Source of the DNA: Maribacter polysaccharolyticus
GTDB taxonomy: Bacteria > Bacteroidota > Bacteroidia > Flavobacteriales > Flavobacteriaceae
Direction: 5' to 3'
NCBI RefSeq assembly: GCF_028882255.1
Contig: NZ_JARBUY010000003.1
Span: 581,018-645,017 of the forward strand
DNA: 64,000 nt
The position numbers and the translations under genes are program-made. The notes below the pieces were generated by a model. The model was not told the DNA's origin. It did no database searches and saw only the letters and a list, made by a program, of their open reading frames with translations. Shown in pieces: positions 2,747 through 63,373 of this stretch (its first letter is position 1; each line of letters starts with the position of its first letter).

Positions 2747-3238
2747 TTAATTCGATTCTACGGGGTCGGCATTGCTTCCGATGTCCCCAGCGGCCAATAT
2801 CGTACCAGTGCTGTCATAAATGTTGATATGGGCATCCAATGTCGAAAGGGATTCGTAAAAATCGGTGTCGGTGACGGTATAAAACTTACTTTCGTCCAAT
2901 TCACCCGTACTGCCGTCCACATCATAGATAGACATTAACACCGATGATTCATCACCGATGGCCCCATCAAGTATACTTACCGGCAGCAATTCGGAATCCG
3001 TGGTGTTATATAAAGATACCTGTATAAGGGTCCGTGAAAGTGTAGGCTCTTCCCAGAAGACCACTCGTCCGTAAACGTCGGTTGCGGCATCGACCGAGCT
3101 GATGGTATAGGCCATATAACTAGATAAGGTTCCACCGCCTTCCGCAGTTTCCAATTCGGGTTCCAAACGGTCTTGTTCGCAAGAAAAAAGACCAATACTT
3201 AGGAGGATTATAAATATATTTCTAAAAGATATTTTCAT
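2747..3238 (-). CDS. Small acidic lipoprotein of unknown function
   Basis: The protein has 163 residues. A signal peptide ends in GLFSC with the lipid-attachment cysteine at residue 20. The mature part is acidic and apparently beta-rich (VYGRVVFWEEP, LIQVSLYNTTD), without a motif I can assign; it faintly resembles CHRD or SOD-like beta sandwiches. It sits 34 bp downstream of the TonB receptor gene and just before the Tat aminotransferase. It may be a surface partner of the receptor, in the place a SusD protein takes in other loci, but it is far too short to be SusD. Confidence 0.6.
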   Translation of the reverse strand: MKISFRNIFIILLSIGLFSCEQDRLEPELETAEGGGTLSSYMAYTISSVDAATDVYGRVVFWEEPTLSRTLIQVSLYNTTDSELLPVSILDGAIGDESSVLMSIYDVDGSTGELDESKFYTVTDTDFYESLSTLDAHINIYDSTGTILAAGDIGSNADPVESN

Positions 3239-59315: not shown

Positions 59316-59429
59316 GTGGTTATAGTTAAAAAACCCTACTAATTTCCACTCCTCCCAATAAAAACGCGTCCACAGTTATAGGATCGCTAGCTGGTTTTGG
59401 CCCCATTTATCGAATGGGGCTTGTTTTTT
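59316..59429 (+). ncRNA. Candidate small RNA between TonB receptor and lipoprotein genes
   Basis: About 110 bases from a predicted start after TTG-N21-TATATTCG to the T-run of a perfect terminator. There is no open frame of note inside. No RNA family is recognised. Confidence 0.3.
59400..59429 (+). terminator. Strong intrinsic terminator
   Basis: GCCCCATT-TATCG... pairs perfectly with AATGGGGC, followed by TTGTTTTTT. No protein gene ends directly before it. Confidence 0.8.
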
Positions 59430-59492
59430 CGATATGAAGGTATTGGTGAAGCTCCTTAAAAAATCGTAATTTCCGCCCTAGAAATGGGGTTC

Positions 59493-59972
59493 ATGAGAAA
59501 GTCTTTAGCCATACTGCTTTTATGTTCTTGCCTTTCCTGTGGTTTCTTCGAATCCAAGGAGGCAAAGACCCAAAAATTGATCAATCGGGAAATGCGGGCC
59601 ATTGACTGGAACGATGTTGACAATTACCCCTTGTTTGAAAACTGCGATGAATCAACCTCCAAAGCAAGTCAAAAAGCATGTTTTGAAAGGGAATTGCTCG
59701 GTTATTTTTCGGCAACTTTGCGAGAGTTTGAATTTGTCATCGATCCCGGTACGGATACTACGGTATATGTTGATTTTCTGATAGACCAAGAGGGTAGGAT
59801 AGGCGTAGTGAATATTCAAAAGGACCGGAAAATAGAGCAAACGATGCCGGAATTCGATCGTATTATTTCCCAAAGTCTAAGTAATTTGCCCTCTTTGGCA
59901 CCGGCATTGAAAAGAGGGATTCCCGTACGGGCAAAATTCAGGATTCCCATTGTGCTCCATGCGAACCAATAG
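59493..59972 (+). CDS. Lipoprotein with TonB-C-like domain
   Basis: The protein has 159 residues from the ATG at 59493 (an ATG at 59484 would add three residues). The lipoprotein signal ends SCLSC. The mature part begins with charged helices and closes with a domain like the C-terminal part of flavobacterial energy transducers: DTTVYVDFLIDQEGRIGVVNI, FDRIISQSLSNLPSLAPALKRG and IPVRAKFRIPIVL. It lacks a membrane-spanning TonB N-terminus. The function is unknown. Confidence 0.65.
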   Translation: MRKSLAILLLCSCLSCGFFESKEAKTQKLINREMRAIDWNDVDNYPLFENCDESTSKASQKACFERELLGYFSATLREFEFVIDPGTDTTVYVDFLIDQEGRIGVVNIQKDRKIEQTMPEFDRIISQSLSNLPSLAPALKRGIPVRAKFRIPIVLHANQ

Positions 59973-60062
59973 GCAAAACACGGAATCAAGAAAAGGTGTT
60001 GGGCAACATAAAATCAAATAAGGCAAGAACATTTCCATTTTCAGCAACTAATAAAGAAGAAT

Positions 60063-60617
60063 TTGTCGAACGAAAGAATCATATTGGGAATCGATCCGGG
60101 AACCACCATCATGGGGTTCGGGATCATTAAAGTGGAGAACAAGCAAATGAAGTTCGTTCAGATGAACGAGTTGTTGCTTCAAAAGTATAGTGACCCCTAT
60201 ACCAAACTCAAACTCATTTTTGAACGTACGATCGAATTGATAGATACCTATCATCCCGATGAAATAGCGATTGAGGCGCCTTTTTTTGGTAAAAATGTCC
60301 AATCCATGCTAAAATTGGGACGTGCCCAAGGGGTGGCCATGGCGGCGGGGTTGTCGCGGCAAATCCCCATTACCGAATACCTCCCCAAGAAAATTAAAAT
60401 GGCCATTACGGGGAATGGAAATGCAAGTAAAGAACAAGTGGCACGTATGCTACAGAGTACCCTTGGATTAAAGTCCTTGCCCAAAAATTTGGACAGTACC
60501 GACGGACTTGCAGCTGCGGTTTGCCATTTTTACAATGAGGGCAAGATAGATATCGGAAAAAGCTATTCCGGTTGGGATGCCTTTGTAAAGCAGAATGAAA
60601 GTAGGATCAAGAAGTGA
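60063..60617 (+). CDS. ruvC: Holliday junction endonuclease RuvC
   Basis: The protein has 184 residues with the RuvC catalytic set: D11 in ILGIDPGTT, an acidic residue in [14 protein letters not shown] and the late acidic pair in [12 protein letters not shown]. It resolves Holliday junctions with RuvAB. The only suitable start is the TTG at 60063; no in-frame ATG exists between the upstream stop near 60009 and the catalytic motif. Confidence 0.93.
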
Positions 60618-60646
60618 TCGGGTTACAATGTACGATTAGCAATTGG

Positions 60647-60835
60647 CAGTGAATAGTGAACAGTAAGCAGTAGGCAGTTGGCAGTAAACAGTAAGCAGTG
60701 AACAGTAAGCAGTTGGCAGTGAGCAGTAAGCAGTGAACAGTGAGCAGTAAGCAGTGAGCAGTGAGCAGTAAGCAGTGAACAGTGAACAGTAAGCAGTTGG
60801 CAGTGAACAGTAAGCAGTGAACAGGAAACAGTGAT
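60647..60835 (+). repeat. Heptamer array, 27 degenerate units (CAGTnnn)
   Basis: Twenty-seven consecutive 7-base units begin CAGT (two are TAGT or CAGG) with variable last three bases, mainly AAG, GAA, GAG and TGG. The array starts 30 bp after ruvC and ends 38 bp before the four-helix gene. It is not a CRISPR array because there are no spacers. Confidence 0.9.
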
Positions 60836-60872
60836 GAGAAGGCACTTGTATTAAAATAAGTAATGATTAAAA

Positions 60873-61238
60873 ATGAAATTTCAAGACCTTTTAGCATATC
60901 AAAAATCATTTGCTCTGGCCATGTCTATTTTTAAGATTTCACAGGGTTTTCCCCAAGAAGAAAGATATTCGTTGACTGATCAAATTAGAAGGTCTTCTCG
61001 CAGTGTTTCGGCCAATATTGCCGAGTCTTACGCAAAGAGAGTTTACCCAAGATATTTTATTAGTAAACTAACAGATGCAGACGCAGAAAATCTGGAAACC
61101 CAAAGTTGGTTGGAATTTGCCTTGGCATGCGGTTATATTAACAATGTACTATTTGAAGATTTGTCCATGCAAAGTAAAGAAGTCGGAAGATTAATGAATT
61201 TTATGATGAACAATCCTGAGAAATTTGGTTCAAAATAA
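60873..61238 (+). CDS. Four-helix-bundle protein (23S rRNA IVP / bAvd-like)
   Basis: An all-helical protein of 121 residues. Family signature: [42 protein letters not shown] and [24 protein letters not shown]. Members are found in intervening sequences of 23S rRNA genes and as Avd partners in diversity-generating elements; many are free-standing as here. The stand-alone function is unknown. The gene is bracketed by two heptamer arrays in opposite orientation. Confidence 0.9.
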
Positions 61239-61254
61239 TTATAATGTCTATTTT

Positions 61255-61329
61255 ACTGACCACTGACCACTGACCACTGACCACTGACCACTGACCACTG
61301 ACCACTGACCACTGACCACTGACCACTGA
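61255..61329 (-). repeat. Heptamer array, about 10.7 near-perfect units (inverse orientation)
   Basis: On the plus strand the unit is CACTGAC; on the minus strand it reads CAGTGGT, so it is the same CAGTnnn heptamer as the left array but reversed. Copies are practically identical. The array ends three bases before the hemW start codon at 61333. Confidence 0.9.
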
Positions 61330-61332
61330 TAT

Positions 61333-62466
61333 ATGAGCGGAATTTACATCCATATACCCTTTTGCAAGCAGGCCTGTCACTATTGTGACTTCCATTTTTC
61401 GACCAGTATGGCGAAGAAAGATGCGATGATCGCTGCGTTGCAAAATGAGTTGGTTTTGCGAAAGGATGAATTCAGGAATGAAGTGGTAGAAACCATCTAT
61501 TTTGGGGGAGGTACCCCATCGGTTTTGGAAACGAATGAAATCAATGGGCTCATACATACCGTTCGATCCAATTACGAGGTCATCGAAAACCCGGAAATAA
61601 CCTTGGAAGCCAATCCGGATGATTTATCCCAAAGGAAGATCGGGCAATTGGCCCAAAGTGAGGTCAATAGATTAAGTATTGGGGTGCAATCATTCTTCGA
61701 GGAAGATCTGAAGATGATGCATCGTGCCCATAATGCGGAACAAGCCTCAAATTCCTTAAAGTGGGCAACGCAGCATTTCGATAATATCTCGGTGGATCTC
61801 ATCTATGGTATTCCCGAAATGACCGATTTGCGCTGGAAACAGAACATCGAAAAAGCCCTTTCTTTCGGGATACCCCATATTTCTTCCTATGCATTGACGG
61901 TGGAACCAAAAACGGCCTTGGCCAGTTTTATCAAAAAAGGATTGATCCCGCCTGTCGATGATGCATTGGCACAGCGACACTTTCAAGTATTGTATGATAG
62001 GCTGGTCGAAGCAGGCTATGATTGTTATGAGGTATCGAACTTTGGAAAACCGCACTATTATTCCAAAAACAATACGGCGTATTGGTTGGGTAAAAAATAT
62101 ATGGGTATAGGCCCATCGGCACATTCCTATGATGGAAAAATTAGAAGTTGGAATATCAGTAACAATCCAAAATATATCAAAATCATCGGACAAGGGCAGC
62201 TGCCAACGACCCGTGAAACACTTTCAATGACCGATAAATACAACGAATATGTAATGACCGGTCTGCGAACCATTTGGGGCATTTCCTTAGATAGGATACA
62301 ATCGGAATTCGGGGAAAAATACTACGTTTATATAACCCGGGAGATGGAAAAATACATAGAACAGGAACTCTTGATGTGGTCTAAAGGGCAGTTGATCGCC
62401 ACAAAAAAAGGAAAATTCTTGGTCGATGGGATTGCCAGCGATTTGTTTATGGTTAATTTAGGATAA
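61333..62466 (+). CDS. hemW: Radical SAM haem chaperone HemW
   Basis: The protein has 377 residues. The radical SAM cysteines are C11, C15 and C18 in CKQACHYCDF. Further family motifs: TIYFGGGTPSVLE, RLSIGVQSFFEEDLKMMHRAH, DLIYGIPEMT and SNFGKPHYYSKNNTAYW. HemW carries haem rather than oxidising coproporphyrinogen; the CxxxCxxC motif with a following Asp-Phe is the HemW type. The array directly before the start replaces any normal leader. Confidence 0.92.
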   Translation: MSGIYIHIPFCKQACHYCDFHFSTSMAKKDAMIAALQNELVLRKDEFRNEVVETIYFGGGTPSVLETNEINGLIHTVRSNYEVIENPEITLEANPDDLSQRKIGQLAQSEVNRLSIGVQSFFEEDLKMMHRAHNAEQASNSLKWATQHFDNISVDLIYGIPEMTDLRWKQNIEKALSFGIPHISSYALTVEPKTALASFIKKGLIPPVDDALAQRHFQVLYDRLVEAGYDCYEVSNFGKPHYYSKNNTAYWLGKKYMGIGPSAHSYDGKIRSWNISNNPKYIKIIGQGQLPTTRETLSMTDKYNEYVMTGLRTIWGISLDRIQSEFGEKYYVYITREMEKYIEQELLMWSKGQLIATKKGKFLVDGIASDLFMVNLG

Positions 62467-62617
62467 AATTATCCATGGTCTCCCAATCGTATGATCTGTA
62501 TCGATCAATTCAGTTGGGAAGCCAATATCGATAGGTTTTTGGCTGTTCGAGCGAAGTCAAACACCGGAACTTATAAACCCACAATGTCTCGGTTGCGCTC
62601 GACGGGACGATTTTTTT

Positions 62618-63373
62618 ATGCTTGCAACATTAAAAGTCAACAATAGAAACCATACGATAGATCTTTCAAAACCCTTGGATATCTCAATACCCATGAAGGG
62701 GAATGCATCCAATGTAAATGCGTGGTACATTGGACATCCCAGAATAGAACCGCACACCGAAGGTGATTTTGTGGGGGCGGTGGCCCAAGGGGCCGCGGTA
62801 AATTTCAACGATATTTGGTTCAATCCCCATTCACATGTTACACATACCGAATGCTTGGGACATATAACCGAAGAATTCAATTCGGTCAATAAAAACCTTA
62901 TGCAATATTTCTTTTATGCCGAAGTGGTCACCATTGCCCCGGAAAAGCTGAACGGGGATTTTGTAATTTCGAAAAAACAGCTGCATTATGCCTTTGGGAA
63001 CAAAAAAAGGGATGCTGTCATAATACGCACCTTGCCCAATTTAAGGGATAAATTCTCCAGGCAATATTCAAAAACCAATCCCCCTTATGTGACTGAAGAT
63101 GCGGCTAAATTTTTGGTGGAGAAAGGGGTAGAACATTTATTGATCGATCTACCCTCGATCGATAAAGAACGCGATGGTGGGGAGCTCCTGGCCCATAGGG
63201 CATTTTGGGGCCTAGGATCAAAGATCAGAAATCAAGCAACCATTACGGAGTTTATATATGTGCCCAATAGTATTGTTGATGGCACCTATTTCCTTAATTT
63301 ACAAGTGGCGCCCTTTGAGAACGATGCCTCTCCGAGTAGACCTGTATTGTATGAAAATATTGTTGAGGAGTAG
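62618..63373 (+). CDS. Cyclase family protein (kynurenine formamidase-like)
   Basis: The protein has 251 residues. The metal-binding motif of the cyclase family (H-x3-H) is seen in NPHSHVTHTECLGHI; VEHLLIDLPSIDKERDGGELLAHRAFWG is the second motif. Such enzymes hydrolyse amide or ester bonds. The substrate is not known. Confidence 0.85.
   Translation: MLATLKVNNRNHTIDLSKPLDISIPMKGNASNVNAWYIGHPRIEPHTEGDFVGAVAQGAAVNFNDIWFNPHSHVTHTECLGHITEEFNSVNKNLMQYFFYAEVVTIAPEKLNGDFVISKKQLHYAFGNKKRDAVIIRTLPNLRDKFSRQYSKTNPPYVTEDAAKFLVEKGVEHLLIDLPSIDKERDGGELLAHRAFWGLGSKIRNQATITEFIYVPNSIVDGTYFLNLQVAPFENDASPSRPVLYENIVEE

Follow-up and report, generated by a model that had tools for sequence, protein, structure and literature searches.

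The window analyzed here is a stretch of 64,000 nucleotides from the genome of Maribacter polysaccharolyticus (Flavobacteriaceae; contig NZ_JARBUY010000003.1, positions 581,018 to 645,017 of the forward strand). Within it, a small gene encoding a four-helix-bundle protein is located between ruvC and hemW and is flanked by two inverted arrays of CAGTnnn heptamers (table 1). This organization, with a degenerate left array and an almost perfect right array that ends three bases before hemW, had been proposed in a preliminary description, and all of its parts were recovered by the family searches and by TRF. Both arrays have a period of 7, with 26.9 copies and 76% matches in the left arm and 10.7 copies and 100% matches in the right arm, and the three bases after position 61329 are followed by the hemW ATG at 61333.

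Table 1. Genes and arrays in the ruvC–hemW region of the window
Feature	Position	Strand	Evidence
ruvC, upstream host gene	60063..60617	+	PF02075, E 3.3e-40
Left (upstream) arm, ~27 degenerate CAGTnnn heptamers	60647..60834	+	TRF
S23 / 23S_rRNA_IVP four-helix-bundle gene, 121 aa	60873..61238	+	PF05635, E 1.7e-29; TIGR02436
Right (downstream) arm, perfect heptamers (10.7 units; ACTGACC on +) in inverted orientation to the left arm	61255..61329	-	TRF
hemW, downstream host gene	61333..62466	+	TIGR00539, E 1.1e-78

The encoded protein (S23) matches PF05635 (23S_rRNA_IVP) with 102.6 bits at a cut-off of 33.8 as well as TIGR02436 (“four helix bundle protein”), has solved relatives (2gsc and 2rld), and displays a dN/dS of 0.144 relative to the copy in genome G001. 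Between the arms, a family match was obtained for S23 alone; the transposase of an insertion sequence with terminal inverted repeats was not found there, nor was anything resembling a recombinase or a reverse transcriptase. Three minus-strand ORFs crossing the arrays contain no Pfam family above cut-off. The left and right arms are predicted to form a duplex of -79.4 kcal/mol, and the predicted MFE fold of positions 60618-61332 contains 54 arm–arm pairs. The element shares two properties with the intervening sequences (IVSs) of 23S rRNA: complementary termini that form a long stem in the predicted fold and an S23/IVP ORF (PF05635 over cut-off). It is not inserted in a 23S gene, since rRNA is absent from positions 59400-62700 in Pfam, family-model and Rfam searches; Rfam gave one match in the interval, to a snoRNA, at chance level.

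The arrays were described initially as flanking only the four-helix gene, which does not hold for the genome as a whole. The triple CAGT pattern CAGTNNNCAGTNNNCAGT matches the genome at 128 (overlapping) positions, including 30 inside the two window arrays, compared with 14 for the reversed control pattern, and CAGT arrays occur in the genome beyond chance. Arrays of at least nine CAGT units are found without an S23 gene in at least five other places (L035-L039). In two of these arrays (L035:2911-3526 and L039:2851-3436), CAGTnnn blocks alternate with CAATTAG-, AGCGATA-, and GGAATTT-type blocks, and a higher-order repeat of ~100-150 bp is visible by eye.

Four S23 genes are encoded in the genome. 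The other three (L041-L043) are located between leuC and leuD, between gmd- and fcl-like nucleotide-sugar genes, and beside recJ (neighbors named by eye). None of these three genes has a CAGT run; each is flanked on both sides by its own 7- or 8-nt repeat units in inverted orientation, as judged by eye. Beside recJ (L043), eight perfect TCAAGTG units (2527-2582) are present on one side, with a degenerate inverted version at ~2985-3010 (by eye).

S23 genes lie between inverted heptamer arrays

S23 genes were found in 9 out of 12 genomes of the genus, 113 out of 149 of the family, and 157 out of 198 of the phylum, often in several copies. Further S23 genes were taken from named contigs (best 80 of 586 confirmed stretches, mostly Bacteroidota and a few others). 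The flanks were analyzed in 251 loci, with the 30 loci found by CAGT pattern matches left out. After removal of incomplete flanks, short genes, genes without a start and identical copies, 233 S23 hits gave 218 distinct genes, 160 of which were non-redundant at 75% identity. The loci stem mostly from top-scoring matches and well-kept S23 genes are therefore over-represented. A total of 300 other ORFs of the same loci served as controls; their flanks may include coding sequence, and separate intergenic controls were used in addition.

Within the 90-bp flanks of the 160 S23 genes, the fraction of bases identical to the base seven positions further on is 0.400 upstream and 0.395 downstream, compared with 0.310 and 0.311 around the 300 control ORFs and 0.294 and 0.295 in dinucleotide shuffles. 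Among periods 2-22, only 7, 14, and 21 are clearly prominent in both flanks. Period-7 arrays that are significant in the shuffling test (p ≤ 0.05) flank 84 out of 160 S23 genes on both sides, and 3 out of 160 control ORFs (the first 160 of the 300). Strong arrays were identified in 36 upstream and 46 downstream flanks of the 160 genes, relative to 42 out of 446 intergenic regions without S23, and strong heptamer arrays are consequently not exclusive to S23. C is scarce in the upstream flank and G in the downstream flank, where self-structure is also weaker than in control flanks (-9.5 vs. -15.7 kcal/mol).

An inverted match between a gene's own two flanks (ungapped, score ≥ 11) was identified around 121 out of 160 S23 genes. 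The same match was found in 189 out of 1589 swapped flanks (12%), in 25 out of 160 S23 genes in direct orientation, and in 29 out of 300 control ORFs; 39 S23 genes have no clear own-flank match. Among the 84 loci with arrays on both sides, 75 show a better agreement of the units when these are compared as inverted rather than as direct repeats, and the arrays have a median distance of 13 bp to the start codon on the upstream side and of 6 bp to the stop codon on the downstream side. A core of 3-5 nt is usually common to both arms and the other positions vary (by eye). The two arms of each element match, and an S23 gene between inverted heptamer arrays is the general anatomy.

The lineage of the window S23 (A-type) is present in 58 out of 299 genomes of the family (E ≤ 1e-25) and keeps the CAGT core at several different sites (17 of the 27 loci with an assignable core, from a total of 32 A-type loci). 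Four out of 30 loci of this lineage (L284, L298, L305, and L309) contain in-frame stops, so that the downstream flank taken there falls inside the gene. Among other S23 lineages, pairs of proteins that are 60-75% identical and are encoded at different sites have a common core in 26 out of 179 cases (14.5%; baseline 2-5%). The cores turn over outside the window lineage while the arms still match, which indicates that the agreement of the arms is kept and not a fixed sequence. Recognition of one fixed unit by the protein is, given this turnover, not general.

A second set of S23 genes was collected by way of Treponema and alphaproteobacterial loci and presumably represents two further phyla; a few of its genomes had also contributed loci to the first set. 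S23 was found in 42 out of 198 genomes on the Treponema side (33 over the family cut-off) and in 62 out of 398 on the alphaproteobacterial side (58 over). Own-flank matches were inverted in 17 out of 34 genes and direct in 12 out of 34 in the Spirochaetota part (swapped flanks 5.4%), and inverted in 25 out of 40 and direct in 6 out of 40 in the alphaproteobacterial part (swapped flanks 9.8%). The peak is again at period 7.

An Rfam search of 59 different loci, some of which had been selected for near-identical S23 copies as a hint of rRNA operons, placed three loci inside 23S rRNA: L364 and the pair L402/L403, in which two rRNA operons of a single genome carry the same gene for S23. The S23 gene of L402 (106.7 bits, well over the family cut-off) starts 1193 nt into the 23S gene and is flanked by inverted ATTCAGG/AATCAGA-type heptamers with a predicted arm duplex of -50.7 kcal/mol. 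L364 carries a broken copy (30.8 bits, below the cut-off, one stop) between inverted heptamers of the GACAGAT type, the unit that has been printed for Coxiella. The same anatomy is therefore present around S23 genes inside the 23S rRNA of two genomes. In both L364 and L402 the insert is directly followed by the stretch GGTAGAGGAGCGTTCTG, which we take to be the helix 45 region.

The available part of the Coxiella study describes an IVS in helix 45 of 23S rRNA with a 28-bp terminal stem that is excised by RNase III, and tandem GACAGAT heptamers before the S23 start whose number varies between strains (PMC4990558). Together with this build, the rRNA-embedded S23 genes with inverted heptamer arms argue that intergenic S23 cassettes form one class with the rRNA IVSs that contain an S23 ORF.

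Occupancy, age, and placement of the elements

The hemW side was compared in 25 out of 30 loci, and ruvC was adjacent in 21 of these. Empty, differently filled and remnant sites were found in this comparison, which had been suggested as a check in the preliminary description. An S23 gene of the window type with CAGT/ACTG arms occupies the ruvC–hemW interval in four genomes (G000, G001, G009, and G011), and in two others (G004 and G022) the S23 protein is only 27-33% identical to that of the window and the arms are of the CAAT/ATTG type. The outermost units in G004 are CAGT as in G001 and the inner units are CAAT (by eye). The gap between ruvC and hemW is <60 bp without S23 in 9 out of 21 loci and 79-150 bp without S23 in three genomes (G010, G012, and G018). 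G003 contains a remnant and G006 a second remnant next to hemW, where ruvC was not found (both by eye), and G024 carries a heptamer array without S23. In G007 another ORF fills the interval, and a different ORF at this place in one congener (L080) suggests that the site is generally permissive. Occupancy of the ruvC–hemW site is patchy. No target-site duplications were seen by eye at this site among the compared genomes, which are too diverged to judge.

Two further observations concern the same interval. In two other genera, hemW is immediately preceded by a perfect array of TTATTCG-type (L087) or ACACTCA-type (L096) units, next to which no S23 gene was found. In two congeners (L075 and L079), the ruvC end of the interval carries a GC-rich CCCCC..CCCCCAAAGGGGGAG stretch, which looks like a different dispersed repeat family.

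Synonymous divergence suggests that S23 genes are younger than their neighbors at several sites. At the leuC–leuD site, S23 of the source genome differs from that of G001 by a dS of 0.092, compared with 1.14 for leuC and 1.10 for leuD (pS at this site 0.09 vs. 0.55 and 0.58), and from that of G003 by 0.125, compared with 0.89 and 0.94 for the neighbors. Relative to the more distant G010 the values are 1.3 for S23 and 2.5 and 1.9 for the neighbors, which is near saturation. The window S23 has a dS of 0.77 relative to G001 (hemW 1.35, ruvC 1.38). Among 23 same-site pairs, which were chosen by neighbor divergence alone and with no gene used twice, S23 is the least diverged gene at synonymous sites in 14, ranks between its neighbors in 5 and is the most diverged in 4. 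Some of these pairs combine close neighbors with S23 genes that are far apart, as after replacement. A nucleotide profile of 19 same-site pairs that were picked for low S23 divergence places S23 closer than both neighbors in 14. The largest site cluster contains 54 out of 243 S23 genes, and five of nine pairs (those with dS < 1.4) display purifying selection on S23 (dN/dS 0.12-0.23).

S23 genes are strongly biased to sense placement within operons. A total of 145 out of 154 are located in sense between two co-directional neighbors and two are antisense to both (six of the 160 were set aside, four at locus edges and two with far neighbors), compared with 143 out of 241 other genes of the same loci that are between co-directional neighbors. 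The bias is weaker in the second set from two further phyla, with 56 out of 76 classified genes (16 more are at edges, far from neighbors or in rRNA). Such a bias would be expected of a cassette relying on host transcription.

Inverted heptamer hairpins without S23 were identified in 16 out of 334 intergenic regions between co-directional genes and in 1 out of 112 others; shuffling gave a single hairpin in five rounds of 446. For 10 of the 16, the unit is common with S23 of the same locus (p ≤ 0.05 relative to 264-266 other loci). In this test, two of the 16 had no S23 arms for comparison, some hairpins are from the same locus, and L133 was trimmed to the array part. At least four S23-less hairpins of one genome (G100) are built from AGTA, the unit of the S23 element in this genome.

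Heptamer arrays without S23 were found 52 times in 1.74 Mb of loci. Triple CAGT patterns are present in 12 out of 12 genomes with the window S23 type (1 to 206 matches, which include the arms of S23 elements, as do all six in G115), in 4 out of 8 genomes with other S23 only (one with 107 matches), and in 2 out of 12 S23-free genomes (at most 4 matches); three further genomes were unclassed. Triple AGTA patterns have at most 3 matches in 12 S23-free genomes (4 of them positive) and 2 to 62 in 12 others. S23-free genomes almost lack these two array patterns. Arrays spread through the genome without such genes, which the preliminary description had named as an argument against a cassette, accordingly give a divided result: CAGT arrays without S23 do occur in the source genome (L035-L039), and across genomes the two patterns track the carriage of S23.

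Interpretation and relation to known elements

We consider it probable, with some reserve, that the window element is an IVS-like cassette without a recombinase, consisting of an S23 gene between inverted heptamer arrays and carried in host transcripts, and that rRNA IVSs are the members inserted in rRNA. The cassette would have no promoter of its own and would be transcribed as part of the host operon. Pairing of the arms in the transcript would give an extended stem made up of short helices (4-5 bp for the core, 2-3 nt for the spacer), with a loop that contains the S23 gene. Cleavage of this stem by RNase III, as published for 23S IVSs in the accessible text of PMC4990558, would set free the host messages on either side with little damage. 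The ring protein S23 may recognize the RNA or the DNA of the element and aid its spread using borrowed enzymes. S23-less array hairpins could be non-autonomous derivatives, and 23S rRNA IVSs with an S23 ORF would be the rRNA-inserted members of the class. By analogy with the IVSs, an RNA-level cassette that is cut by RNase III and for which S23 is a dedicated binding protein is favored, and we infer that the cassette spreads without its own recombinase. The idea of a mobile cassette or an RNA-level element in the preliminary description is supported in part, by empty and differently filled ruvC–hemW sites, by other S23 genes that are flanked alike, and by rRNA members of the same build. A wider claim, which we put forward only tentatively, is that S23 is the core of a large RNA-borne mobile class without its own recombinase, in which a private and fast-changing heptamer co-evolves in inverted arrays, which enters rRNA and mRNA, leaves miniature hairpins, and is the source of many heptamer repeats in bacteria.

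Two tests of pairing in the sense RNA were negative. G·U combinations between the arms are not enriched relative to A·C (106 vs. 169, the reverse of enrichment), a comparison that may be confounded by the A-richness of the upstream arm, perhaps for translation. A stability advantage of the sense strand was likewise rejected (sense more stable in 74, antisense in 86).

These two outcomes, together with the arms being inverted copies at the DNA level, are what would be expected if the arrays were multi-site terminal inverted repeats that are bound by S23 as DNA and moved by a host recombinase, without any role for RNA pairing; antisense RNA would pair equally well and no wobble signature would arise. 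We regard such a DNA-level element as unlikely, as the bias to sense placement and the members embedded in rRNA, of a kind that is cut from RNA (PMC4990558, as far as its available part goes), both point to the transcript; the C-poor upstream flank and the G-poor, less self-structured downstream flank also speak against it. A further alternative is that S23 is an ordinary operon gene that is not mobile now, and that the arrays are regulatory, for example autoregulation sites of the ring protein or mRNA-processing stems. Purifying selection on S23, the sites that are filled in many genomes, and the proximity of the arrays to the start and stop codons agree with this alternative; it conflicts with the empty sites and swapped occupants at ruvC–hemW, with S23 genes that appear younger than their hosts at several sites, with the S23-less hairpins elsewhere, and with the members inside 23S rRNA, and we judge it to be quite improbable.

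STRR heptamers are intergenic repeats of cyanobacteria and resemble the arrays studied here as 7-nt tandem arrays scattered over distant groups. TAACTGA heptamers of the Beggiatoaceae share these features; in the part of that paper available, they are direct repeats with one inverted case and are not paired arms around a gene, and S23 and four helix each have no mention (PMC4679880). Such arrays, and the S23-less arrays in our own loci and intergenic regions, would fit plain short tandem repeats that expand by slippage and for which S23 is incidental. Slippage does not make inverted copies of one private unit, and the arrays are tied to genomes with S23; this explanation, already disfavored by the matching of the arms, is given very little probability.

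Among the closest known systems are the 23S rRNA IVSs with an S23 ORF, such as the Coxiella IVS, which has this ORF in the loop, a terminal inverted stem, and heptamers before the start, and is called selfish (PMC4990558, available part). The window element differs from it in its location between protein-coding genes instead of in rRNA, in its arms, which are expanded arrays, and in the purifying selection on S23, whereas the Coxiella S23 is described in the same text as undergoing reductive evolution and probably not expressed.

The family of Avd, a protein of diversity-generating retroelements, is a related four-helix-bundle family. The window S23 is below both Avd cut-offs (bAvd, 34.7 bits at a cut-off of 40; DivGenRetAVD, NF033474, 26.1 bits at 80). 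REPIN–RAYT systems consist of a gene for a Y1 (HUH) transposase flanked by inverted repeats (REP palindromes), with gene-less copies of the ends in the genome. The S23 elements resemble them in the gene between inverted repeats and in the gene-less end copies elsewhere (the 10 out of 16 hairpins, G100, and the CAGT arrays), and differ in that the ends are heptamer arrays with a private unit and not REP palindromes. No Y1 (HUH) transposase was found in the element: S23 belongs to PF05635 with PF22296 below cut-off, and the minus-strand ORFs of the arrays are without a Pfam family.

Taken together, the data point to one widespread family of small mobile elements that has so far been described mainly from ribosomal RNA. 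Inverted heptamer arms around S23 genes of operons and 23S rRNA alike would join rRNA intervening sequences and intergenic heptamer repeats, which have been treated apart, into one testable class. We know of no function for S23, and its cassettes offer a concrete system for how an element without a recombinase spreads, and raise the questions of why its ends go on matching as they change in sequence, and what role a heptamer repeat plays for a pentameric four-helix bundle.

We found no open-access PMC paper that describes intergenic S23 genes as array-bounded elements, and among open-access PMC titles and abstract openings S23 and heptamers are joined only in the Coxiella paper (PMC4990558). 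As far as the available parts of these papers go, S23 IVSs in rRNA, heptamers in one of them (PMC4990558), and heptamer repeats without S23 (PMC4679880) are already in print. The element had been called not yet named, which is accurate except for the rRNA form, known as IVS and with its Coxiella heptamers published. Two entries in other studies are of note: the domain legend of a figure in a paper about rare CRISPR-Cas systems names 23S rRNA IVP (PMC10910872), and both Flavobacterium columnare genomes contain, within regions called phage elements, a four helix bundle gene between the guanylate kinase and nicotinate mononucleotide adenylyltransferase genes (PMC5524665).
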